Positions 146-9,344 of a stretch of 61,976 bases of DNA are shown in pieces. The notes under the pieces are model-generated. The model did not search any database. It saw nothing but the letters and a program-made list of their open reading frames with translations, and was not told the origin of the DNA. The stretch is from NCBI GenBank assembly GCA_947378425.1, contig CANCJV010000022.1, positions 1 through 61,976 of the forward strand, written 5' to 3'. The translations under genes were made by a program, and so were the position numbers. Origin of the DNA: Synechococcaceae cyanobacterium (GTDB taxonomy: Bacteria; Cyanobacteriota; Cyanobacteriia; PCC-6307; Cyanobiaceae). The stretch's first letter is position 1, and every line of letters begins with the position of its first letter.

Positions 146-1021
146 CTAGAAGGGAATCGGCATCGTCACATCGGCGGGCTCGGGTGCGCAGGCCGGCACC
201 CGCTGATTCACCACCTCGCCGATCACCACGATCGAGGGGGAGGCGAAGCCCTCGGCTTCCACCCGCGCGGCCAGCTCGGCCAGGGTGGCCACCAGGGCCC
301 GCTGGCCCCGCACCGTGCCCTGCTGGATCACCGCCGCTGGCGTGGCCTCCGACAGGCCTCCGGCGATCAGCTCCGCCACGATGCGAGCCAGGTTGTGAAG
401 CCCCATGTAGATCACCAGGCCATCGCTGCTGCGGGCCAGGCCGCGCCAGTCGACACCGGCACGCCCCTTGTCGATCTCCTCATGGCCGGTGACGAAGGTG
501 ACGCTGGAGCCGGCCTTGCGATGGGTGACGGGGATGCCGGCGTAGGCCGGGGCGGCGATGCCGGCGGTGACTCCCGGCACCACCTGCACCGGAATGCCCC
601 GCGCCGCCAGATGGGCCGCCTCCTCGCCGCCGCGGCCGAACAGGAACGGATCACCGCCCTTGAGCCGCACGATCGTGCTGTGACGGCTGGCCAGCTCCAC
701 CAGCACGGCGTTGGTGCTCGGCTGGGGCACCGAATGGTGGCCGCGGCGCTTGCCGACGAAATGGCGCTCGCAGCCTGGTGGCACCAGCTCCAGCACCGCC
801 TGGGGCACCAGCGAGTCGTAAACGAGGGCGTCGCAACGGCGCAGCAGCCGGTGGGCCTTGAGCGTCAGCAGTTCGGGATCGCCCGGCCCCGCACCCACCA
901 GGTAGACGGTGCCCGGGCGCTGCGGAACCGGCGGCAAGCTGCCCGCCCCGGCAGCTGCAGGGTCAGCCATGGCAGGTCCAGCACTGGCGGGGTCGGGCGT
1001 GGCGGCGGGATCGCGGCTCAT
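146..1021 (-). CDS. cobA: Uroporphyrinogen-III C-methyltransferase
   Basis: This 291-residue enzyme adds two SAM-derived methyl groups to uroporphyrinogen III, giving precorrin-2, the entry to siroheme and cobalamin. Visible motifs are the N-terminal YLVGAGPGDPELLTLKA segment, the KGGDPFLFGRGGEE loop, VVPGVTAG and the PVTHR segment; the length fits a single-domain CobA. Start: an ATG at 1021 overlaps the stop of the upstream chelatase-like gene by 4 bp (ATGA), so the two are probably translationally coupled. The first 30 or so residues (Ala/Pro/Asp-rich) precede the conserved core. Siroheme is the nitrite reductase cofactor, which fits the neighbouring nitrate-related genes. Confidence 0.95.
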   Translation of the reverse strand: MSRDPAATPDPASAGPAMADPAAAGAGSLPPVPQRPGTVYLVGAGPGDPELLTLKAHRLLRRCDALVYDSLVPQAVLELVPPGCERHFVGKRRGHHSVPQPSTNAVLVELASRHSTIVRLKGGDPFLFGRGGEEAAHLAARGIPVQVVPGVTAGIAAPAYAGIPVTHRKAGSSVTFVTGHEEIDKGRAGVDWRGLARSSDGLVIYMGLHNLARIVAELIAGGLSEATPAAVIQQGTVRGQRALVATLAELAARVEAEGFASPSIVVIGEVVNQRVPACAPEPADVTMPIPF

Positions 1022-2004
1022 GGCAGCGCGGCCAGTTGCTCGAGCAGCAGCTGGCGCAGCCGTGGCCGCTCCAGCAGGGGCGCTGCCTGAAGCGAACCGA
1101 GCAGGGGCTCCAGCCGCTCGGTGAGCCGGTTGGCGGCCAGGGCCAGGGGGAGTACGGGGCCGTCGATGGCCAGGGCGAGCTCCTCGGAAACCTGCGAACT
1201 GTATGGAGCCGCCAGGCAGCGGCAGCCGAGGCGCCGCTGCAAATGGGCCAGGTAGCGAAGGGCGAGCCCCCCCTCGAGCGGGTGATGCAGCAGCAGCGGT
1301 GGCGCTTTGACCCGCCCGGCGCTGGCGGCGGCATCCGCGAGAGCGGCCAGCTCGGCAGCCAGGGCGCTCTGCCAGGCCGGCCAGGCCCCCAGGAACGGCA
1401 GGCGCCGCACGCCAGGAGCTGGAGCCGGAACGGCTTCCAAACCAACACCATGGTTTCGGCATGCAGCGGCGACAGCCTCGGCCCCCCTGGCGCCGGAGCC
1501 ATGGTGACAACCGACGCCTAGGGCCGCAGATCCAGCCACAACAGCCGACCCCGCTGGGTTGACACTGAAGCCAAGCCCGGAACCAGGACGAAGGGCAGCG
1601 CCAGGCTCCCCAACGACGCCGGGGGCATCATGTCCAGCCATGGCGGCCGAGGCCGGGCTGGCGCCAGCACCAAGGCCACCGCCAGCTCCTTGCTCCGCGC
1701 CGGCAACCGCGGGGGCAAGCCCCTCGCCTGCGGCCAGGAGGTCAGCGCCGGCCGTTGCGCGCAACAGCTGAGCCAGGGCCGGCACATCGACGCGGGCGTG
1801 GTTGCCCGGCAGCAGCAACAGGGGCACCAGGGTCAGCCCAGGCCCCCCCATGGCGGGTTCATCACCCGGCTCCGGCGCCGTCAAGGCCCGAAGGCCCACC
1901 GGCGCCTGACGGCGCTGCTCCAGCTCCCGGGCCAGCTGCCGATACACCTCGGGAATCACGCCGCCGGTGCGCCCATGCACCACCAGCAGCAGGGGAGTTG
2001 CCAT
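1018..2004 (-). CDS. CbiX/SirB-like sirohydrochlorin chelatase family protein
   Basis: This 328-residue protein begins MATPLLLVVHGRTGG, the usual start of the CbiX/SirB N-terminal chelatase domain, where the early His-Gly belongs to the metal site. A second half (from about residue 170) contains RRLPFLGAWPAWQ and LLLHHPLEGG, fitting a two-lobe chelatase of about 300 residues. The likely role is metal (Fe or Co) insertion into sirohydrochlorin, directly downstream of CobA in the pathway. It overlaps cobA by 4 bp. Only 42 bp separate its start from the divergent narM-fusion gene. The middle section is Gly/Ala-rich and poorly conserved. The family call is fairly sure; the metal is not determined. 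Confidence 0.75.
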   Translation of the reverse strand: MATPLLLVVHGRTGGVIPEVYRQLARELEQRRQAPVGLRALTAPEPGDEPAMGGPGLTLVPLLLLPGNHARVDVPALAQLLRATAGADLLAAGEGLAPAVAGAEQGAGGGLGAGASPASAAMAGHDAPGVVGEPGAALRPGSGLGFSVNPAGSAVVAGSAALGVGCHHGSGARGAEAVAAACRNHGVGLEAVPAPAPGVRRLPFLGAWPAWQSALAAELAALADAAASAGRVKAPPLLLHHPLEGGLALRYLAHLQRRLGCRCLAAPYSSQVSEELALAIDGPVLPLALAANRLTERLEPLLGSLQAAPLLERPRLRQLLLEQLAALP

Positions 2005-2046: not shown

Positions 2047-3615
2047 ATGCTGCCTCCCGAGCCGGGCGATGGGCTGATCAGCGAGCGGCGCGGCCGCCAC
2101 AGCGCCGAGCTGGGCGCGGACACGCTGCGCTTCCGGGAGCTGATCGGCAAGCTCGGCAGCGGCGAGCGCACCAGCACCGGCCTCAGCCGCGAGGAGGCCG
2201 CCGAAGCCCTCGATCGCTTGCTGCAGGGGCGGGTGAGCGACGCCCAGGCCGCGGCCTTCCTGATCGCCCATCGGCTGCGGCGCCCCGAACCGCAGGAGCT
2301 GGCGGGCCTGATCGACAGCTACCGGCGCCAGGGGCCGACCCTGCTGCCGGCGGGGCGACGGGTGGTGAGTTTCGGCGTGCCGTTTGATGGCCGCTGCCGC
2401 ACGGCGCCGGTGCTGCCGCTGACAGCCCTGCTGCTGGCGAGCGCCGGGCTGGGAGTGGTGCTGCATGGCGGCGATCCGATGCCGGTGAAGTACGGGCTCA
2501 GCAATGCCGAGGCCCTGGCTGCCCTCGGCCTCGAGTTGCGCCAGCTGGACTGGCCGGCGGTGCAGGCCGGGTTCTCTGCCTGCGGCCTGGCCCTGCTGCA
2601 CCAGCCGCGCCACTTCGCCGCGGCCGAACGGCTGATTCCGATCCGCCGCCAGATCGGCAAGCGCCCGCCGCTCGCCACCCTGGAGCTGCTCTGGAGCTGC
2701 TGCCCCCAGGCCGATCTGCAGGTGAGCGGCTTCGTGCACGCCCCCACCGAGGCGTTGGCCTGGGAAGCGCTGGCGCAGGTGGGACAGGCAGAGGTGCTGC
2801 TGATCAAGGGGCTGGAGGGAGGCGTGGATCTGCCCACGAGCCGGGTGGCGATCGCCGCCCATCGCCGCGCCGGCCAGGCGCTGCCGGAGCGGCTGCTCCT
2901 GCAGGCGCGGGATCACGGCCTGCGGGGGCCGGAACCGGAGCTCACCAGCCTGGAAGCCTGGCGGGACGACGCCCTGGCGGCCCTGGTGGGCGAGGGACCG
3001 CTGCGGGACAGCCTGCTCTGGAACGGCGGCTTCCAGCTCTGGCGGGCGGGGCTGGCCACCACGCTGGCGGAGGGCCTGGAGCGGGCCGAGGCGCTGGTGG
3101 TTGAGGGAGCGGTGGAGCGCTGGCGCCAGACCTGCAGCGCCCGGCTGGAGCGACCGCGGCGCTGCTTTGCCTTCGAAGCCGATTTCGTCGACGATCTGCG
3201 CTGCCTGCCGATGGCGGTGCGCCGCAAACTCGATCTGGCTGGGGTGAAGCTCAAGCTCAACCACTGGCACGGGCTGGACGGCGCAGAACGCGAACAGCTG
3301 CTGGCCTGGCAGGACGATCCAGCCGCCATCACGGCGCTGGGCCAGTGGCTGCTGCAGCGCTGCGCCGCCCTGCCGCCCGCGCCACCGAGCCTGCTGGAGC
3401 CAGCCCGCGAGACCGCCTGGCAGCGGCAGGACGAGCTGCCGGCGGAGCTGCTGGCTTCCTGCGAACAACTGGGCCTGCGGTTAGCGCCAAGGCCCTGGGG
3501 CGCACTCGACGAGCTGGAGCGCTTCGCCCTGGTGAAGCTCAGCCACCCGGGCCACGAACACCACAACCTGCCCAAGGCGCTGGCGGAGTTCGGGATGCTG
3601 GCGTCAAACCCCTGA
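2047..3615 (+). CDS. TrpD2-like phosphoribosyltransferase fused to NarM domain
   Basis: This 522-residue protein has two recognisable halves in one open frame. Residues 1 to about 350 resemble the anthranilate phosphoribosyltransferase (glycosyltransferase family 3) relatives common in cyanobacteria: FRELIGKLGSGE, a helical N-domain, VVSFGVPFDGR and VVLHGGDPMPVKYG. From about residue 370, CFAFEADFVDDLRCLPMAVR, KLKLNHWHGL and a C-terminal ERFALVKLSHPGHEHHN match the nitrate-reductase-associated NarM family, needed for active NarB in cyanobacteria. No stop or frameshift lies between them. In-frame GTGs at 3097 and 3112 could start a separate 167-residue NarM, but the upstream domain would then have no stop. 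It ends directly against convergent cynS. The phosphoribosyltransferase-like half has no assigned substrate. Confidence 0.8.
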   Translation: MLPPEPGDGLISERRGRHSAELGADTLRFRELIGKLGSGERTSTGLSREEAAEALDRLLQGRVSDAQAAAFLIAHRLRRPEPQELAGLIDSYRRQGPTLLPAGRRVVSFGVPFDGRCRTAPVLPLTALLLASAGLGVVLHGGDPMPVKYGLSNAEALAALGLELRQLDWPAVQAGFSACGLALLHQPRHFAAAERLIPIRRQIGKRPPLATLELLWSCCPQADLQVSGFVHAPTEALAWEALAQVGQAEVLLIKGLEGGVDLPTSRVAIAAHRRAGQALPERLLLQARDHGLRGPEPELTSLEAWRDDALAALVGEGPLRDSLLWNGGFQLWRAGLATTLAEGLERAEALVVEGAVERWRQTCSARLERPRRCFAFEADFVDDLRCLPMAVRRKLDLAGVKLKLNHWHGLDGAEREQLLAWQDDPAAITALGQWLLQRCAALPPAPPSLLEPARETAWQRQDELPAELLASCEQLGLRLAPRPWGALDELERFALVKLSHPGHEHHNLPKALAEFGMLASNP

Positions 3616-4071
3616 TCACCACTTGCGATAGGGCAAAAACTTGCCGTTCATCGTCACCACCACCCGCTCGCCCCTGGGATCGTCCTGTTTGTCCACGGTG
3701 AGGGTGAAGTCGATCGCCGACATGATGCCGTCGCCGAACTTCTCCTGGATCACATCCTTCAGCGGCAGGCCGTAGACCTGCAGGATCTCGTGGAAGCGAT
3801 ACAGCAACGGATCGGTGGGGATCACCGGATCGAGCGCTCCCTTGACGGGATAGGTGCTGAGCGCCGCGACCAGGGCCGGCCGCTCAGCCTCCGGCAGCTG
3901 CAGGGCGTCGAGCAGCAGCTGCCCCTGCGCTGCTGTTGCGGTGGCCTGGCCGTACAGGAGGCTGGCCACCCACACCTCGTCCTGACCCAGGTGTGCACCC
4001 AGCTCAGCGAAGCTGAGGCCGCTGCGGCGCTTGGCCTCCAGCAGGGCCGCCGTGTGGGGTGAAAGCGCCAT
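3616..4071 (-). CDS. cynS: Cyanate hydratase (cyanase)
   Basis: This 151-residue enzyme converts cyanate plus bicarbonate to ammonia and CO2, supplying nitrogen. The N-terminal DNA-binding-like fold ([20 protein letters not shown]) and the catalytic C-terminal core are clear: [15 protein letters not shown], the [18 protein letters not shown] segment with the active-site region, and the terminal [10 protein letters not shown]. Length matches the family (about 147). The ATG at 4071 shares a CATG tetranucleotide with the divergent mobA start, so the two coding regions overlap by 2 bp at their starts. The stop abuts the stop of the convergent TrpD2/NarM gene with no spacer. No cyanate transporter gene lies beside it. 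Confidence 0.95.
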
Positions 4072-4804
4072 GGAACCAACCCGAGACTCCCAGGACCCTA
4101 CGAATGGGCGACGGCGAGCCAGGCCGCTGCCGCCCCAGCAGACCAGCGACGGTCCACCCCTGCGCTGCTGCCTGCTCAGCGGTGGCGCCAGCCGGCGCAT
4201 GGGCCGCGACAAGGCCCTGCTGCCCCACCCCGAAGGCGGCACCTGGCTGGAGCGCAGCCTGACGCTGCTGGCCCAGCTGGAGCGGCCGATCACCCTGCTG
4301 AGCCGCCATCCCGCCCACCTGGCGCTGGCCGCCGCCCTGCCCCAGGTGACCCCGATCGCCGAGCCCGCCCCCTGGGAGGGGCCGCTGCTGGCCCTGCACC
4401 GCTTGATGCAGCGCCACCCGGATCAGCGCCTGCTTCTCTGTCCGGTGGACATGCCGGAACTCAGCATGCCGGTGCTGCGGCAGCTGCTGGCGGCGGCGGC
4501 CCAGGAGCCCCAGGGGCTTCACCTGGCCCACGACGGCCGGCGCCTGCAGCCGTTGCTGGGGGTCTATCCCAGCGCGATCGCGCTGCGCCAGCACCTGGCC
4601 GCCAGCATCGACTCCGGCGAGCGGCGCCTGCAGAGCTGGCTGATGGCCCACCCTTTTGAGGCGGTTGCGCTGGATCCCCGGGCGCTGCGCAACGTCAACT
4701 GGCCCGACGGCGGCCGGACGGACTTCAACGGCCCGGAGTTCAACCGGCCGGACGTCAACCCGCCGAACCTCAGCCGGCCGCAGCGTGATCAGCCGAGTGC
4801 CTGA
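4070..4804 (+). CDS. mobA: Molybdenum cofactor guanylyltransferase
   Basis: MobA transfers GMP to Mo-molybdopterin to form the bis-MGD cofactor used by nitrate reductase and the YdeP-like enzyme nearby. Motifs: [19 protein letters not shown] (nucleotide-binding loop), PWEGPLLAL and CPVDMPELS (metal-binding region), and the family-typical closing RNVNWPD. The predicted 244 residues exceed the usual roughly 200: a 30-residue leader precedes the GG loop and a repeat tail of about 27 residues follows the normal C-terminus. The ATG at 4070 shares bases with the cynS start; a start further in is possible but no ATG precedes the motif. It overlaps the convergent HEPN gene by 16 bp. Confidence 0.88.
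4724..4783 (+). repeat. 15-bp tandem repeat, four units, in the 3' end of mobA
   Basis: Four consecutive 15-nt units encode [15 protein letters not shown] and LSRPQ; an earlier VNWPD just upstream may be a fifth diverged unit and is the natural end of MobA. The tract appends a pentapeptide-repeat tail and brings the mobA stop into the 3' end of the convergent HEPN gene. It looks like replication-slippage growth of the last conserved codons. Confidence 0.75.
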
Positions 4805-5160
4805 ACCGCGGCGTCACAGCGCTGCAGCATCGCCTCGAGTTCCGCCAGCAGCAGCCCCCGCTCCCCGGGCAACGGGAACGGACCCTCCTCATAGCGGGCT
4901 TCCACCGCAAAAACCTGCAGAGCCAGCAGTTGCGGAGCCACGCGCTGGCCAGCCAGATCGGCCAGTTCGGCGAGATCATGCACCCGCGGCGGCTGACGGT
5001 CCGCCAGCACGATCCAGGCCTTGAGCAGCTTCTCCAGCGTCTGCTGGGCTGTGCATCCCCAGTCCTCCTGCGGACAGGCCGGATCCAGGCCGATCCGCAG
5101 ACTGCACAGATGGCGACGCACAATCGCCAGCAGCAACCTGGCGTCCTCAGCCGGCGACAT
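4789..5160 (-). CDS. HEPN domain protein (putative toxin of HEPN/MNT pair)
   Basis: This 123-residue, largely helical protein has the HEPN layout: an N-terminal helix (AEDARLLLAIVRRHL), the central AQQTLEKLLKAWIVL helix, R55-x5-H61 followed by DL (the RX4-6H RNase-type motif), and an ARYEEGPFP segment near residue 100 typical of HEPN proteins paired with MNT nucleotidyltransferases. It starts at an ATG 14 nt inside the end of the upstream MNT gene, so the two form one transcription unit with the MNT first. Its 3' end overlaps mobA. In known pairs the HEPN protein is an RNase-like toxin neutralised by MNT-mediated AMPylation; activity here is inferred. Confidence 0.8.
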   Translation of the reverse strand: MSPAEDARLLLAIVRRHLCSLRIGLDPACPQEDWGCTAQQTLEKLLKAWIVLADRQPPRVHDLAELADLAGQRVAPQLLALQVFAVEARYEEGPFPLPGERGLLLAELEAMLQRCDAAVQALG

Positions 5161-5566
5161 ACAGCACCCGCCCCTGCCGGGCCACATCGCCGAACACATG
5201 CCAGCGCGACTGGCTCAGCCGCTCAGCAGCGGCCGCACCGGCCACCACGAGGTCGACTCCGACCCCCGAGGGGCCGATCAGCTGGCGGAAACGGCGCCAG
5301 CAGGAGGCCTTCTGCGCTGGTGTGAGCTCGGGCTGGGCCACGATCACGGCCAGATCCAGATCGGAATCAGCCCGGGCGTCACCCCGCCCCCGCGATCCGA
5401 ACACCAGCACGGCCCGCACGTCCGGCTGGCCGCAGAGACGGCCCAGCGCTGCGCCACACACCTCCTCCTCCAGCCCCGGCCCCAGATCCAGCACCCCTGG
5501 CAGCTCCTGCGCCTGGAGCCAGGGAATGGCCGGCGGGCGGAAAAGCTGGGTGGAGGGTGCAACCAT
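5147..5566 (-). CDS. MNT-type minimal nucleotidyltransferase (putative antitoxin)
   Basis: This 139-residue protein has the polymerase-beta-like signature: G57-S58-R-G-R-G-D-A-R-A-D-S68-D69-L-D71, with the Ser and two Asp of the metal site intact, and a further VGVDLVV strand carrying the third acidic residue. It lies directly upstream of, and overlaps by 14 nt, a HEPN gene, the standard gene order of HEPN/MNT (type VII) toxin-antitoxin modules. The first 35 residues before the fold are Pro/Leu-rich. A divergent moaA starts 50 bp away. The likely role is AMPylation of the HEPN partner. Confidence 0.85.
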   Translation of the reverse strand: MVAPSTQLFRPPAIPWLQAQELPGVLDLGPGLEEEVCGAALGRLCGQPDVRAVLVFGSRGRGDARADSDLDLAVIVAQPELTPAQKASCWRRFRQLIGPSGVGVDLVVAGAAAAERLSQSRWHVFGDVARQGRVLYVAG

Positions 5567-5615
5567 CCCCAGACGCTACCCCCGGCAACTGGGCCCCAGC
5601 CATAGCGTGAGCCCC

Positions 5616-6794
5616 ATGGCCAGCCCTGCCCCCCTCGACCGCCACCACCGGCCCCTGGGGGTGCTGCGGCTGTCGCTGACGGCCCGCTGCAACCTGGCCT
5701 GCCCCTACTGCCTGCCGGATGGCCAGGAGCCGCCGGGGCTGCTGAGCCTGGAGGAGCGCCTTTGGCTGGTGGAGGCAGCGGTGCAGCTCGGCGTCCACAC
5801 CGTGCGGCTCACCGGCGGCGAACCGCTGCTGCACCCCGATCTGGAAGAGCTGATCCGCGCCCTGGCACCGCTGCGCCAGCGCCCGCAAGGCGATCGCTTC
5901 GGCCAGCTGCGCCAGATCGCCCTGACCAGCAACGGCACCCTGCTGAGCGCCGAGCGGGCCGTGGCCCTGCGCCAGGCGGGACTGGAGCGGATCACCCTCA
6001 GCCTCGACGGCGCTGATGGCGCCAGCGTCGCCCGCATGGCGGGGCTGGCCTCAACGGCTGGGCAGCCGGCCACGGAGGACGCCACGCACAGCGCCCGTGG
6101 CGAGGCCCTGCTGGCCAGGGTGCTGGCAGCCATCGACCATGCCCGGGCGGCGGGCTTCGATCCGGCCGCCGGGGAGCTGAAGCTCAACGCCGTGATCACC
6201 CGCCACGGCAACGCCGACCAGCTGCTGCCCCTGGCGGCCCTGGCCCGGGAGCGGGGGCTGGAGCTGCGGCTGATCGAATACATGGATGTGGGCAACCGCA
6301 ACGGCTGGGATCCCACCCAGGTGATCGCCGCCGCCGAGATGGTGGGCCGCATCGACGCCCGCTGGCCCCTGGAGCCCCTGGGCCGCGACTGCCACGGCAC
6401 CGCCAGCCGCTGGCGCTACCGCGATGGCGGCGGTCTGCTGGCGGCCGTGGCCTCGATCAGCGCGCCGTTCTGCGGCGATTGCAACCGGCTGCGCATCACC
6501 GCCGAAGGCGTCGCCTACACCTGCCTGTTCGCCGCCGAGGGCCACGATCTGCGGCCCTGGTTGCGGCCCCACCTCGATCGGGACGGGCTGCGGGAAGCAC
6601 TCAGGTCGCTGTGGCAACAGCGCGGCGATCGCTACAGCGAGGAGCGCAGCCTGAGCGCCATGGCGACCTCCAGCAGCACCATGGCAACCCCCGGCTCGAT
6701 CGCGAACCCCGACTCCACGACGAAGCCCGACGCGATTCAGGCCCCACAGGCCAGGCCGCCAGCCCATGCCGAGATGGCCTACCTGGGGGGCTGA
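5616..6794 (+). CDS. moaA: GTP 3',8-cyclase (molybdenum cofactor biosynthesis protein A)
   Basis: MoaA is the radical SAM enzyme that with MoaC turns GTP into cyclic pyranopterin monophosphate. In 392 residues it has the N-terminal cluster C25-x3-C29-x2-C32, RLTGGEPLL, and the C-terminal second cluster C-x2-C-x13-C in APFCGDCNRLRITAEG. The essential C-terminal Gly-Gly is present (MAYLGG). A Ser/Thr/Pro/Ala-rich insert of about 40 residues lies between the last domain and the Gly-Gly tail, longer than usual. Start: ATG at 5616, just before the conserved GVLRLSLTARCN. Its last 16 bp overlap the end of the convergent oxidoreductase gene. Confidence 0.95.
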   Translation: MASPAPLDRHHRPLGVLRLSLTARCNLACPYCLPDGQEPPGLLSLEERLWLVEAAVQLGVHTVRLTGGEPLLHPDLEELIRALAPLRQRPQGDRFGQLRQIALTSNGTLLSAERAVALRQAGLERITLSLDGADGASVARMAGLASTAGQPATEDATHSARGEALLARVLAAIDHARAAGFDPAAGELKLNAVITRHGNADQLLPLAALARERGLELRLIEYMDVGNRNGWDPTQVIAAAEMVGRIDARWPLEPLGRDCHGTASRWRYRDGGGLLAAVASISAPFCGDCNRLRITAEGVAYTCLFAAEGHDLRPWLRPHLDRDGLREALRSLWQQRGDRYSEERSLSAMATSSSTMATPGSIANPDSTTKPDAIQAPQARPPAHAEMAYLGG

Positions 6795-9247
6795 GGCCGC
6801 ACCAGCACCGGCACCCGCTTGAAGGCCGGGGTGCCGCAGCGGGGATCCCGGTCACCCTTCATCAGCACATTGGCCTCGGGATAGAACATCAGGGCCGCGC
6901 CGGCACAGATCTCGCCGGGGATGATCTCGATGTCGTCGAGCCGGCCCGCCTCCCCCTGCACCCGCACCCGCTGGTGGGCCAGCAGGCCGCTGCGCCGCAG
7001 ATCGTCGCGATTCATCAGGATCGTCTGGCGATGGGGCATGCCCCGGTAGCTGTCGGCCTGCTTGTAGACGACCGTGTTGTGCTGGCCGTAGCTGCGGGCG
7101 GTGATCAGGCTCAGCACCAGCCCCGGCGGCTCCTCGGTGGCGTCAGGCCCGGCTGCGGCGGGATCGAGGCCGGGATCGCTGCCGGAATCCCGGGGGGAAT
7201 CCGGGTCGACCACAGGTCGGCGATCCGGGGCGGAGTCGGCGTCATCGGAAGTGAGGTCGGTGGCGGCTTCAGGGGCGAAATCGGTGCAGTGGTCCGGGAC
7301 ACCAGGGGGCGGCCCTGGCTCGAAATGGCGGCGATCCGGCAGGCTCAGTTCGGGCAGGGGCGTCACCGCCAGCCGTGCCCGGCCGCTGGGGGTGCGGAAA
7401 CAGGCCTCGCTGAACACCCGGCCCAGCACGCTGAACTCCTCGCCGCTGGCATCGATCCGGGCCAGGGGGCCATAGCCCGGCACGGTGCGGGCGATCAGCT
7501 GACGCACGTAGGCCGCATCCTGCAGGCGGCGCCAGTCGATCGGTGCCTCACCATGGACCCGGTGGGCCAGTTCGCCCAGGAACACCACCTCGCTGATCAG
7601 ATCGGCATCGCGCAGGTGGGTGCTGCCGGGTTCGTTGAGGCGCACCCAGTTGTTGCCCGATTCCACCGTGGTGCGATGGGGGGTCTCGAAGCGGTTGAAC
7701 ACCGGCAGCAGCAATGTCTGCCTGGCCCCCAGCCCATGGAAATGGCCGGTGTTGGGCTTGGTGGCCAGATACACGATCGTGTCGATCCGCCCCAGGGCCC
7801 GGCCAGCCTGGGTGGCATCGGGATTGGCGCCGTAGAGATTGCCCCCCAGACACAGCAGCGTGTCCACCGCTCCGGCCTCGGCGGCCTCGATCAGGGCGCG
7901 GGTGTCGTAGCCGGGCACCGGGCTGAGGGGCCGGCCCAGCAGGGTTTCCAGCGCCCTCTGCATCGGTTCGCGCAGCTGGGTGCTGACCCCCATTGAGCCG
8001 AAGCCCTGGACGTTGGAGTGACCCCGGATCGGCATCGTGCCGGCGCCGGGACGGCCGACGTTGCCGGTGAGCACCGCCGTGTTGGCGATCGCCTGAACGT
8101 TGTCGCAGCCATTGACATGGTGGGTGATGCCCATCGCCCAGGCGAACACCACCGCCGGAGCGGCGGCGATGCGCTCGGCCGTCAGCTCCAGCTCCTCGCG
8201 GCTGAGGCCGCAGCAGCGGCAGATCGCCTCCCAGGAGAGGCCTCGCAGTTGCTCGATCAACGGCTCCCAGCCCTCGGCATGGGCCTGCACAAAGTCCAGC
8301 CGCAGGCGATCCGCCTCCAGCAGGGCCTTCTGGATGCCCAGGAACACCGCCGTGTCGGAGCCGGGCAGGGGCTGCAGGAACAGCGAGGCGATCTCCGAAC
8401 CGCGCAGCATCGAACGGATCGGGAACGCCGGCGAACCGAAGCGCTGCAGCCCCACCTCCAGCACCGGGTTGATCACGATCACGGTGCCGCCCCGCTGCCG
8501 CAGCCGGATCAGCTCGTTCATCAGCCGCGGGTGATTGGCCGGCGCATTCGAGCCCACCAGCACGACACAGTCGGCCTGTTGCAGGCTCTCGAGACTGACA
8601 TTGGAGGTGCCGGAGCCGAACACCTGATTGAGCACCACGCTGGAGGCGGCGTGGCAGAGATCGGAGCAGTCGGCGAGGTTGTTGGAGCCGAGCGCCCGCA
8701 GCAACAGCTGCAGCAGCCAGGCGGCCTCATTGGAGGAGCGGCCGGAGCTGTAGGAGGCGAGCCGATCGGGCGGAACACGGAAGGCCTGCTCCGTCAGCGC
8801 ATACACCTCGTCCCAGCCGATCGGCTCGTAGTGGCTGCTCCCTTGGCGCAGGATCAGAGGCCGCGACAGACGACCCAGCTGATCGCATTCGGAGGAGCTG
8901 AGCTGCTGCAGTTCCGCCAGGTTGCGCGAGGCAAACACCTGCCGGGGCACGGCGAGCTGCAGTTCGGCCACCACCGCCTCGACGCTCTTGAGACAGCGTT
9001 GCAGCGGTTCGCCCAGTTCATCGCGGAAGCCCCCCTTCTGACCGCCGGTGCCCCAGGCGCAGGAGAGGCAGGCGCTGCTGTGATTGAGGGTCTGCCAGAG
9101 CCTGGGGCCGATGCCGGACAGGGTGGCGCGGGCCCAGCCGTCGATCAGGGGCCAGCCACCACCAACCGTGGGTGTCACCCCGGCTCCGGGGCTGGGGATC
9201 GGCTCCGGGGCGGCCGGGTCGGGAACGTCGGCGGCGGGATCGGCCAT
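6779..9247 (-). CDS. FdhF/YdeP-family molybdopterin oxidoreductase
   Basis: This 822-residue protein is of the formate-dehydrogenase-like FdhF/YdeP family. Near residue 60 is CLSCAWGTGGQKGG, the short C-x2-C region of YdeP-type proteins; then SYSSGRSSNEAAWLLQLLLR, DCSDLCHAASS (Cys at the position of the Mo-ligating Sec/Cys of formate dehydrogenases), MGITHHVNGCDNVQAIAN, GRPGAGTMPIRGHSNVQG, and a C-terminal molybdopterin-binding domain (SLITARSYGQHNT, GAALMFYPEANVL). Substrate unknown. An Asp/Pro/Ser-rich linker of about 55 residues separates the last two domains. There is no signal peptide, so it is probably cytoplasmic. It overlaps moaA by 16 bp and sits amid the genes that make its cofactor. 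Confidence 0.85.
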   Translation of the reverse strand: MADPAADVPDPAAPEPIPSPGAGVTPTVGGGWPLIDGWARATLSGIGPRLWQTLNHSSACLSCAWGTGGQKGGFRDELGEPLQRCLKSVEAVVAELQLAVPRQVFASRNLAELQQLSSSECDQLGRLSRPLILRQGSSHYEPIGWDEVYALTEQAFRVPPDRLASYSSGRSSNEAAWLLQLLLRALGSNNLADCSDLCHAASSVVLNQVFGSGTSNVSLESLQQADCVVLVGSNAPANHPRLMNELIRLRQRGGTVIVINPVLEVGLQRFGSPAFPIRSMLRGSEIASLFLQPLPGSDTAVFLGIQKALLEADRLRLDFVQAHAEGWEPLIEQLRGLSWEAICRCCGLSREELELTAERIAAAPAVVFAWAMGITHHVNGCDNVQAIANTAVLTGNVGRPGAGTMPIRGHSNVQGFGSMGVSTQLREPMQRALETLLGRPLSPVPGYDTRALIEAAEAGAVDTLLCLGGNLYGANPDATQAGRALGRIDTIVYLATKPNTGHFHGLGARQTLLLPVFNRFETPHRTTVESGNNWVRLNEPGSTHLRDADLISEVVFLGELAHRVHGEAPIDWRRLQDAAYVRQLIARTVPGYGPLARIDASGEEFSVLGRVFSEACFRTPSGRARLAVTPLPELSLPDRRHFEPGPPPGVPDHCTDFAPEAATDLTSDDADSAPDRRPVVDPDSPRDSGSDPGLDPAAAGPDATEEPPGLVLSLITARSYGQHNTVVYKQADSYRGMPHRQTILMNRDDLRRSGLLAHQRVRVQGEAGRLDDIEIIPGEICAGAALMFYPEANVLMKGDRDPRCGTPAFKRVPVLVRPQPPR

Positions 9248-9344
9248 CGGCGTCCTGAAAGCGGAAGTGCAGGCTAAGGGACGTCAATAAGCCAGGAACC
9301 CCACGTCGTTGCCTGGGGCAGCAGGGGAGCCTGGCCGCCGGCGA

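Follow-up and report, generated by a model that had tools for sequence, protein, structure and literature searches.

NarM is required for an active nitrate reductase, NarB, and to our knowledge no mechanism has been established for NarM or for CnaT. In PMC9430850, cnaT is described as acting positively on expression of the nirA operon in Anabaena, and the nitrate region of Synechococcus WH7803 is said to include cnaT (all0601) and cynS. Since CnaT is already described for nir-operon expression, its link to this pathway is not new. The Anabaena gene numbers given in PMC7699953 and PMC3898017 are all0602 for ntcB, all0605 for nirB and alr0607-0612 for the nir operon. The fold of the CnaT family is that of anthranilate phosphoribosyltransferase (AnPRT, TrpD) and of Escherichia coli YbiB (TrpD2), both of which are described as dimers in PMC10123104 and PMC9835598. 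TrpD2 proteins of the YbiB type bind nucleic acid in a basic groove. For freshwater picocyanobacteria, PMC10161378 describes an "anthranilate phosphoribosyltransferase" flanking nrtABCD and calls it unrelated. In this study, we analysed a window of 61,976 nucleotides from a Synechococcaceae cyanobacterium (genome G000; contig CANCJV010000022.1 of assembly GCA_947378425.1, here contig C22), in which a CnaT-family domain and a NarM domain share one gene.

The fusion gene lies at 2047..3615 on the forward strand. The open-frame reading of the window showed no stop from ATG 2047 to TGA 3615, giving a single frame of 522 aa. In profile searches, residues 28-363 (2128..3135, forward strand) matched the CnaT family model NCBIfam NF005635 (PRK07394) at 404 bits against a cut-off of 287, and two Glycos_transf_3 domains matched the same residues. 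Residues 373-515 matched Pfam PF09655 at 142 bits (cut-off 25), and the NarM model TIGR02664 scored 141.6 bits (cut-off 110). The NarM domain (3163..3591, forward strand) is full-length, covering positions 1-144 of 144, and stands above both cut-offs. The searches of the GT3/TrpD2 and NarM families therefore recovered both domains, and the first-pass annotation, which had described one uninterrupted frame with a TrpD2-like and a complete NarM-like domain, is borne out. The window also contains an 816-aa open frame on the opposite strand in the open-frame list. Open frames are cheap in GC-rich DNA, so it is homology and selection that carry the case for the fusion.

From gene order and from the naming used in the papers, CnaT (Anabaena all0601) is the best identification of the TrpD-like half. 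The NF005635 gene adjoins a LysR regulator in L140 and L143, two Nostoc-like loci; beyond other genes lie a HEAT-repeat protein and then the protein ahead of nirA, which is a Rieske protein in L140. Set beside the Anabaena gene numbering, this order puts the NF005635 gene in the position of all0601, cnaT. NirB was rejected as an identity for the TrpD-like half: the HEAT-repeat protein holds the NirB place between the LysR gene and nirA in both loci, and the NF005635 gene stands beyond the LysR gene, in the place of all0601. We also examined 20 loci across the phylum, which we picked from the CnaT search of 292 phylum genomes. In 12 of these, a LysR gene lay no more than 400 bp from the NF005635 gene, and, two query loci excepted, these LysR genes were 53-90% identical to the one of L140 or L154. 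Strong matches to nirA, narB or nrtA lay within the same 20 kb in nine loci, and four (L140, L143, L154 and L158) had both the LysR neighbour and nirA in the stretch. In eight further family loci, cynS lies about 0.5 kb from the NF005635 gene. The window copy resembles described CnaT in scoring well above the family cut-off, but it belongs to a distinct paralogue clade, is fused to NarM and, within the window, lacks nirA, nrt and narB as neighbours. It also has no LysR neighbour, and the contig begins just beyond cobA.

We compared the CnaT half with its structural relatives. The CnaT profile scored 117 bits to the AnPRT structure 4hkm and 98 bits to the YbiB structure 4muo, and the best Foldseek match of the CnaT model was 4hkm_B (E 5.4e-14, TM 0.80 by target). 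The CnaT half shares its fold with AnPRT but reached 69 bits against an AnPRT cut-off of 199, and its pyrophosphate/Mg-binding residues and KHGNR loop are replaced. In a profile alignment read by eye, the PRPP/Mg site was gone, with GxPxD in place of GTGGD and x-D in place of D-E. The AnPRT ligand residues N117, S119, T120, K135, N138 and R139 (Mtu numbering, from PMC9835598) were likewise replaced in CnaT. A nucleotide- or phosphoribosyl-handling role, as first proposed from the sequence, is weakened by the replacement of these PRPP- and Mg-binding residues. Like CnaT, YbiB has the TrpD fold without the PRPP motif, and CnaT K148 aligns by eye with YbiB Arg123, as numbered in PMC10123104. The fusion nevertheless fell below the YbiB model NF006005 (78.4 bits, cut-off 185), and CnaT has its own invariant motifs DGR, GKRPP, HxPTE and KGxEG. 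Among 38 CnaT sequences, 44 columns were invariant, including these motifs and K148, which argues for a conserved predicted binding pocket rather than a decayed one; CnaT may have some other catalytic role. Since YbiB and AnPRT are dimeric, a CnaT2 dimer would bear two NarM domains.

The fused NarM keeps the 25 columns that are invariant in a 42-row alignment in which it is included. It resembles described NarM proteins in being a complete domain, but it forms the C-terminal half of a longer protein, and the molybdoenzyme next to it is FdhF/YdeP-like, not NarB. Modelled alone, NarM was mostly helical (pLDDT 88.6). The search against solved structures by sequence profile gave no significant match (best E 0.25), and by structure the best match in the PDB had an E of 3.7, and none of 74 chains reached a Z of 2. 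Judging from the model, NarM (window 3139-3612) possibly has a fold not yet in the PDB.

The unbroken two-domain frame was found in five of 42 genus genomes, namely G000 (the window), G025, G027, G037 and G034; the contigs of the four other genomes are L065, L066, L064 and L071, and the G034 copy starts at a contig edge. Across the six pairs among G000, G025, G027 and G037, the CnaT half had a dN/dS of 0.08-0.21 and the NarM half one of 0.14-0.28; the 17-codon junction gave 0 to 1.64, on too few changes for a verdict. Between G000 and G034, the values were 0.26 for the CnaT half and 0.43 for the NarM half, the latter covering a mosaic region. By these ratios, both halves are under purifying selection. 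A sequencing error hiding a stop near 3100, which had been raised as a way for the fusion to fail, does not fit an intact frame in five genomes with both halves under such selection.

In a census of 400 family genomes, 314 of which had a match, no other fusion was found among the matches listed, and within those matches the fusion is confined to one clade. In eight genomes (G372, G396, G503, G470, G572, G562, G577 and G496), cnaT and narM share a reading frame that is interrupted by one TGA; these genomes were considered as independent fusions and rejected, because the TGA splits two genes. Among CnaT matches above the cut-off in the 292 phylum genomes, long frames elsewhere were seen only in G052 (509 aa) and on contig C13 of G000 (497 aa), and no NarM was present within the 20-kb stretch around the G052 frame. 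Elsewhere among the loci examined, CnaT and NarM are encoded separately, frequently by neighbouring genes. We found no report of a CnaT-NarM fusion in open-licence papers, a scope outside which most older cyanobacterial papers fall. Contig C13 of G000 carries a separate cnaT/narM pair with a 4-bp ATGA overlap, 56% (cnaT) and 62% (narM) identical to the fused halves, within a nitrate cluster of narB, nrtA/B/C, nirA, a cbiX-like gene and cobA. Contamination is unlikely as the source of this cluster, since nirA of G025 is 97% identical to it and part of G025 narB 96%. In G000, cynS, mobA and moaA are each present twice: one set belongs to the nitrate cluster (L004:1-4133), and the other lies beside the fusion (window 3616-6794).

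In a tree of 121 CnaT rows, the fused CnaT fell within a paralogue clade of 21 rows (SH-aLRT 100), here called CnaT2; six of the rows belong to the fused clade, eleven are stand-alone genes from the genus, and four come from other genera. A cbiX-like gene adjoins all eleven stand-alone genes and cobA accompanies it in ten; the one without a visible cobA (L044) is at a contig edge. About 95 kb separates CnaT2 from a narM-mobA-moaA-YdeP module in G002 and G010. In the fused clade, the siroheme-side module (cobA, the cbiX-like gene and cnaT2) abuts the molybdenum-side module (narM, cynS, mobA, moaA and the YdeP-like molybdoenzyme gene), and the fusion is the seam. CnaT2 is dispensable, as shown by G016 (L168), in which the copy beside cobA and the cbiX-like gene is reduced to two fragments, and by G033, in which it is missing beside cobA and a cbiX-like gene.

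The NarM tree placed G000, G025, G027 and G037 in one clade (100/99), while G034 grouped with G018, G029, G008, G019, Vulcanococcus and GreenBA-s (99/93). Compared with G000 at the DNA level, residues about 391-510 of G034 matched at 58-76% by block and the flanking blocks at 88% or more, and the odd tree place of G034 NarM arises because only these residues diverge. The pattern is the mark of an exchange, in which the NarM core would have been replaced by a divergent allele within an already fused gene (L169/L040). CnaT, the NarM C-terminus and cynS of this mosaic remain close to G000.

The fusion could be a near-neutral accident, in which tandem genes lost the stop between them and the product was tolerated because its two ends are free, the link itself bringing no benefit. 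The single in-frame TGA between the genes of the eight relatives puts the fusion one step away, its known occurrence is limited to one clade among the matches listed, and the CnaT half was unharmed both by the NarM core exchange in G034 and by the loss of NarM in two relatives (G023 and G036). However, the fused state has stayed unsplit over a dS of about 0.2-0.3 in five genomes that retain the molybdenum module, and we consider such an accident fairly unlikely.

The genes around the fusion were assigned by profile. On one side lie cobA (uroporphyrinogen-III C-methyltransferase; 146..1021, reverse strand, start ATG 1021 or 970; TIGR01469 308 bits, cut-off 185) and a cbiX-like, sirohydrochlorin chelatase-like gene (1018..2004, reverse strand; PF01903 21.6 bits, just below the cut-off of 22), which is divergent from the fusion with 42 bp between them. 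On the other side are the cyanase gene cynS (3616..4071, reverse strand; TIGR00673 184 bits, cut-off 113), a mobA-like gene for molybdenum cofactor guanylyltransferase (4031..4804, forward strand; TIGR02665 78.9 bits, below the cut-off of 151.85), whose homology starts near 4163, and a moaA-like gene for GTP 3',8-cyclase (5592..6794, forward strand; TIGR02666 259 bits, below the cut-off of 284). The gene at 6779..9247 on the reverse strand encodes an FdhF/YdeP-family molybdo-oxidoreductase (TIGR01701 748 bits, cut-off 582); NarB was ruled out, as nitrate-reductase models gave at most 115 bits. The setting among molybdenum-cofactor and siroheme genes seen by the first-pass annotation thus holds, and the molybdoenzyme found there is FdhF/YdeP-like, not a nitrate reductase.

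The YdeP-like gene is present in 32 of the 42 genus genomes, where it is frequently linked with narM, mobA and moaA and could pass for NarB. In raw counts that ignore kinship, NarM was found in all 32 genomes with the YdeP-like gene, and the YdeP-like gene in none of the six genus genomes without a full NarM. In 22 genus genomes, NarM and the YdeP-like gene lie within 12 kb of each other; for NarM and narB the same holds in nine. NarM accompanies the YdeP-like gene in four genomes (G007, G015, G027 and G037) where no narB was found; both narB and nirA were not found in G015 (100% complete, 50 contigs) or in the MAGs G027 and G037 (85% complete). Two observations count against a link between NarM and the YdeP-like enzyme: G146, outside the genus, has the YdeP-like gene and narB with NarM absent, and in non-picocyanobacterial loci NarM lies by narB (for example L154, L158 and L159). 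Also to be set against the explanation that we favour is narB without NarM in G033 (99% complete) and G039 (73%). In G033 (L171), narB and nirA are present and narM and moaA were not found; its narB may be inactive.

Two relatives carry natural deletions at this locus. G036 (L163) follows the window collinearly on either side of a missing stretch at about 3350-9342. G023 (L164) is without that stretch too, apart from remnants of narM and mobA. The lost segment holds the NarM 3' part, cynS, mobA, moaA and the YdeP-like gene, and no moaA, YdeP-like gene, narB or nirA was found in either MAG (G023 88% complete, G036 91% complete). Both genomes keep, next to cobA and the cbiX-like gene, an intact CnaT half that is 92% identical to that of G000, with a dN/dS of 0.13-0.23. 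The two genomes carry differing deletions of one segment, with a likely loss of molybdenum cofactor synthesis. The key genomes are mostly MAGs (G023, G036 and, at 85%, G037), so a gene recorded as absent may be unassembled. A hand count in the genus gave 34 genomes with both NarM and moaA, two with NarM only (G009 and G037), one with moaA only (G039) and five with neither (Fisher p 1e-4, uncorrected). CnaT or a fragment of it was retained in four of these five (G023, G028, G033 and G036). Since NarM was lost with the molybdenum genes while CnaT2 was kept in G023 and G036, NarM follows the molybdenum module and CnaT2 does not; and since these relatives lost the NarM half alone along with those genes, the halves appear to have separable jobs.

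Across the 292 phylum genomes, a hand count gave 110 with both CnaT and NarM, 11 with CnaT only, six with NarM only and 165 with neither. Six of the 11 CnaT-only genomes have nirA, and two of these also have narB (G033 and G146); in G182, G265, G304 and G315, nirA is present and narB was not found. Neither nirA nor narB was found in G155, G206, G263 and G092, and G128 gave a NirA match of 28% at most and no narB. NarB and NarM occur without CnaT in G202, G249 and G299.

We examined the cobA neighbourhood in 60 picocyanobacterial loci, of which four without CnaT and nine shorter than 9 kb were dropped, leaving 47. cobA was near CnaT in 39 of the 47, a non-random sample, and seven of the eight loci without a nearby cobA (L090, L092, L095-L097, L099 and L100) form the Candidatus Synechococcus spongiarum group in the tree. 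Only two of the 20 phylum loci (L144 and L157) had cobA, and both are picocyanobacterial. In G155, G206 and G263 (L204, L205 and L157), CnaT is divergent from cobA with 23-35 bp between the aligned regions. That these small genomes keep CnaT by cobA, with nirA and narB not found, is a hint of a role outside nitrate assimilation. In G092 (L153), CnaT retains an ntcB-like LysR neighbour, and nirA and narB were not found in the genome. The cobA neighbourhood may reflect the siroheme need of NirA instead of CnaT function.

These counts bear on the idea that the fusion is a single nitrate-reductase maturation factor, with CnaT and NarM acting jointly on NarB and the covalent link marking a shared step. 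The high co-occurrence of the two proteins fits it, as do the adjoining separate genes in many loci, including the pair in G000 with its ATGA overlap. Against it stand the intact CnaT2 after NarM and molybdenum gene loss, the CnaT genomes in which narB, or both narB and nirA, were not found, and the three genomes with NarB and NarM but no CnaT; we regard the idea as decidedly doubtful. The proposal that the TrpD2-like protein acts in the same process as NarM therefore stands for the broad pathway, through CnaT and nitrate assimilation, and is not supported for a single common step, given the deletions in G023 and G036 and the occurrence of CnaT without NarM.

The junction (3109..3162, forward strand) was defined from an AlphaFold2 model and a DNA alignment. 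The model of the fusion had a pLDDT of 84.5 and a pTM of 0.73, with residues 257-295 poor, and in it the last CnaT helix (residues 355-371) enters NarM directly, with no flexible linker predicted (local pLDDT about 73-76). In the alignment of G000 with six relatives, GTG 3097 occurred only in G000, and GTG 3112 was kept in all seven sequences. Release of NarM alongside the long form, by a start at GTG 3112 or by cleavage, is highly improbable: GTG 3112 is common to all seven sequences, several of which have a G-rich stretch ahead of it, but that stretch varies and is not clear in G025, a GGAGG core is absent from all seven, and the start would fall within the last CnaT helix of the model. A full-length product would follow from the open frame, given translation of the gene. 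An exact NtcA site (GTAN8TAC) was absent from the window and from L004, and none with one mismatch was seen on the forward strand of the stretches scanned.

The reading that we favour, at a probability of about 55%, is that one chain carries two helpers, CnaT2 and NarM, fused at the seam of two modules, with NarM serving a molybdoenzyme and CnaT acting as a non-catalytic, siroheme-linked binder or regulator. The siroheme-side and molybdenum-side modules would have become neighbours, and the stop between cnaT2 and narM would then have been lost. The NarM half is probably the maturation partner of a molybdoenzyme, perhaps of its YdeP-like neighbour, alone or together with NarB. The CnaT half would act without catalysis, probably as a dimer, in binding or regulation within a process linked to cobA and siroheme. 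The link would set co-production and stoichiometry without creating a new reaction, and the fusion would be maintained wherever the molybdenum module is maintained, its halves having separable duties. We infer the service of NarM to the YdeP-like enzyme and the siroheme-linked binding role of CnaT2 from neighbourhood and co-loss. A broader proposal, which we hold to be unlikely, is that NarM matures both NarB and an FdhF/YdeP-family enzyme, if not further molybdoenzymes, and that the fusion couples molybdoenzyme assembly with a siroheme-linked process through a TrpD-fold dimer whose PRPP site is dead.

The fusion and the two deletions make two questions testable, namely whether NarM serves the YdeP-like enzyme and what CnaT does in genomes where nitrate and nitrite reductase were not found. 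By extrapolation from other genomes, the "anthranilate phosphoribosyltransferase" beside nrtABCD in the strains of PMC10161378 is suggested to be CnaT. The group that bears the fusion consists of lake-dwelling freshwater picocyanobacteria, in which two nitrate-assimilation helpers are carried in a single chain. Together, the fusion and the two natural deletions part the roles of its halves: NarM goes with molybdenum enzymes, and CnaT needs none.
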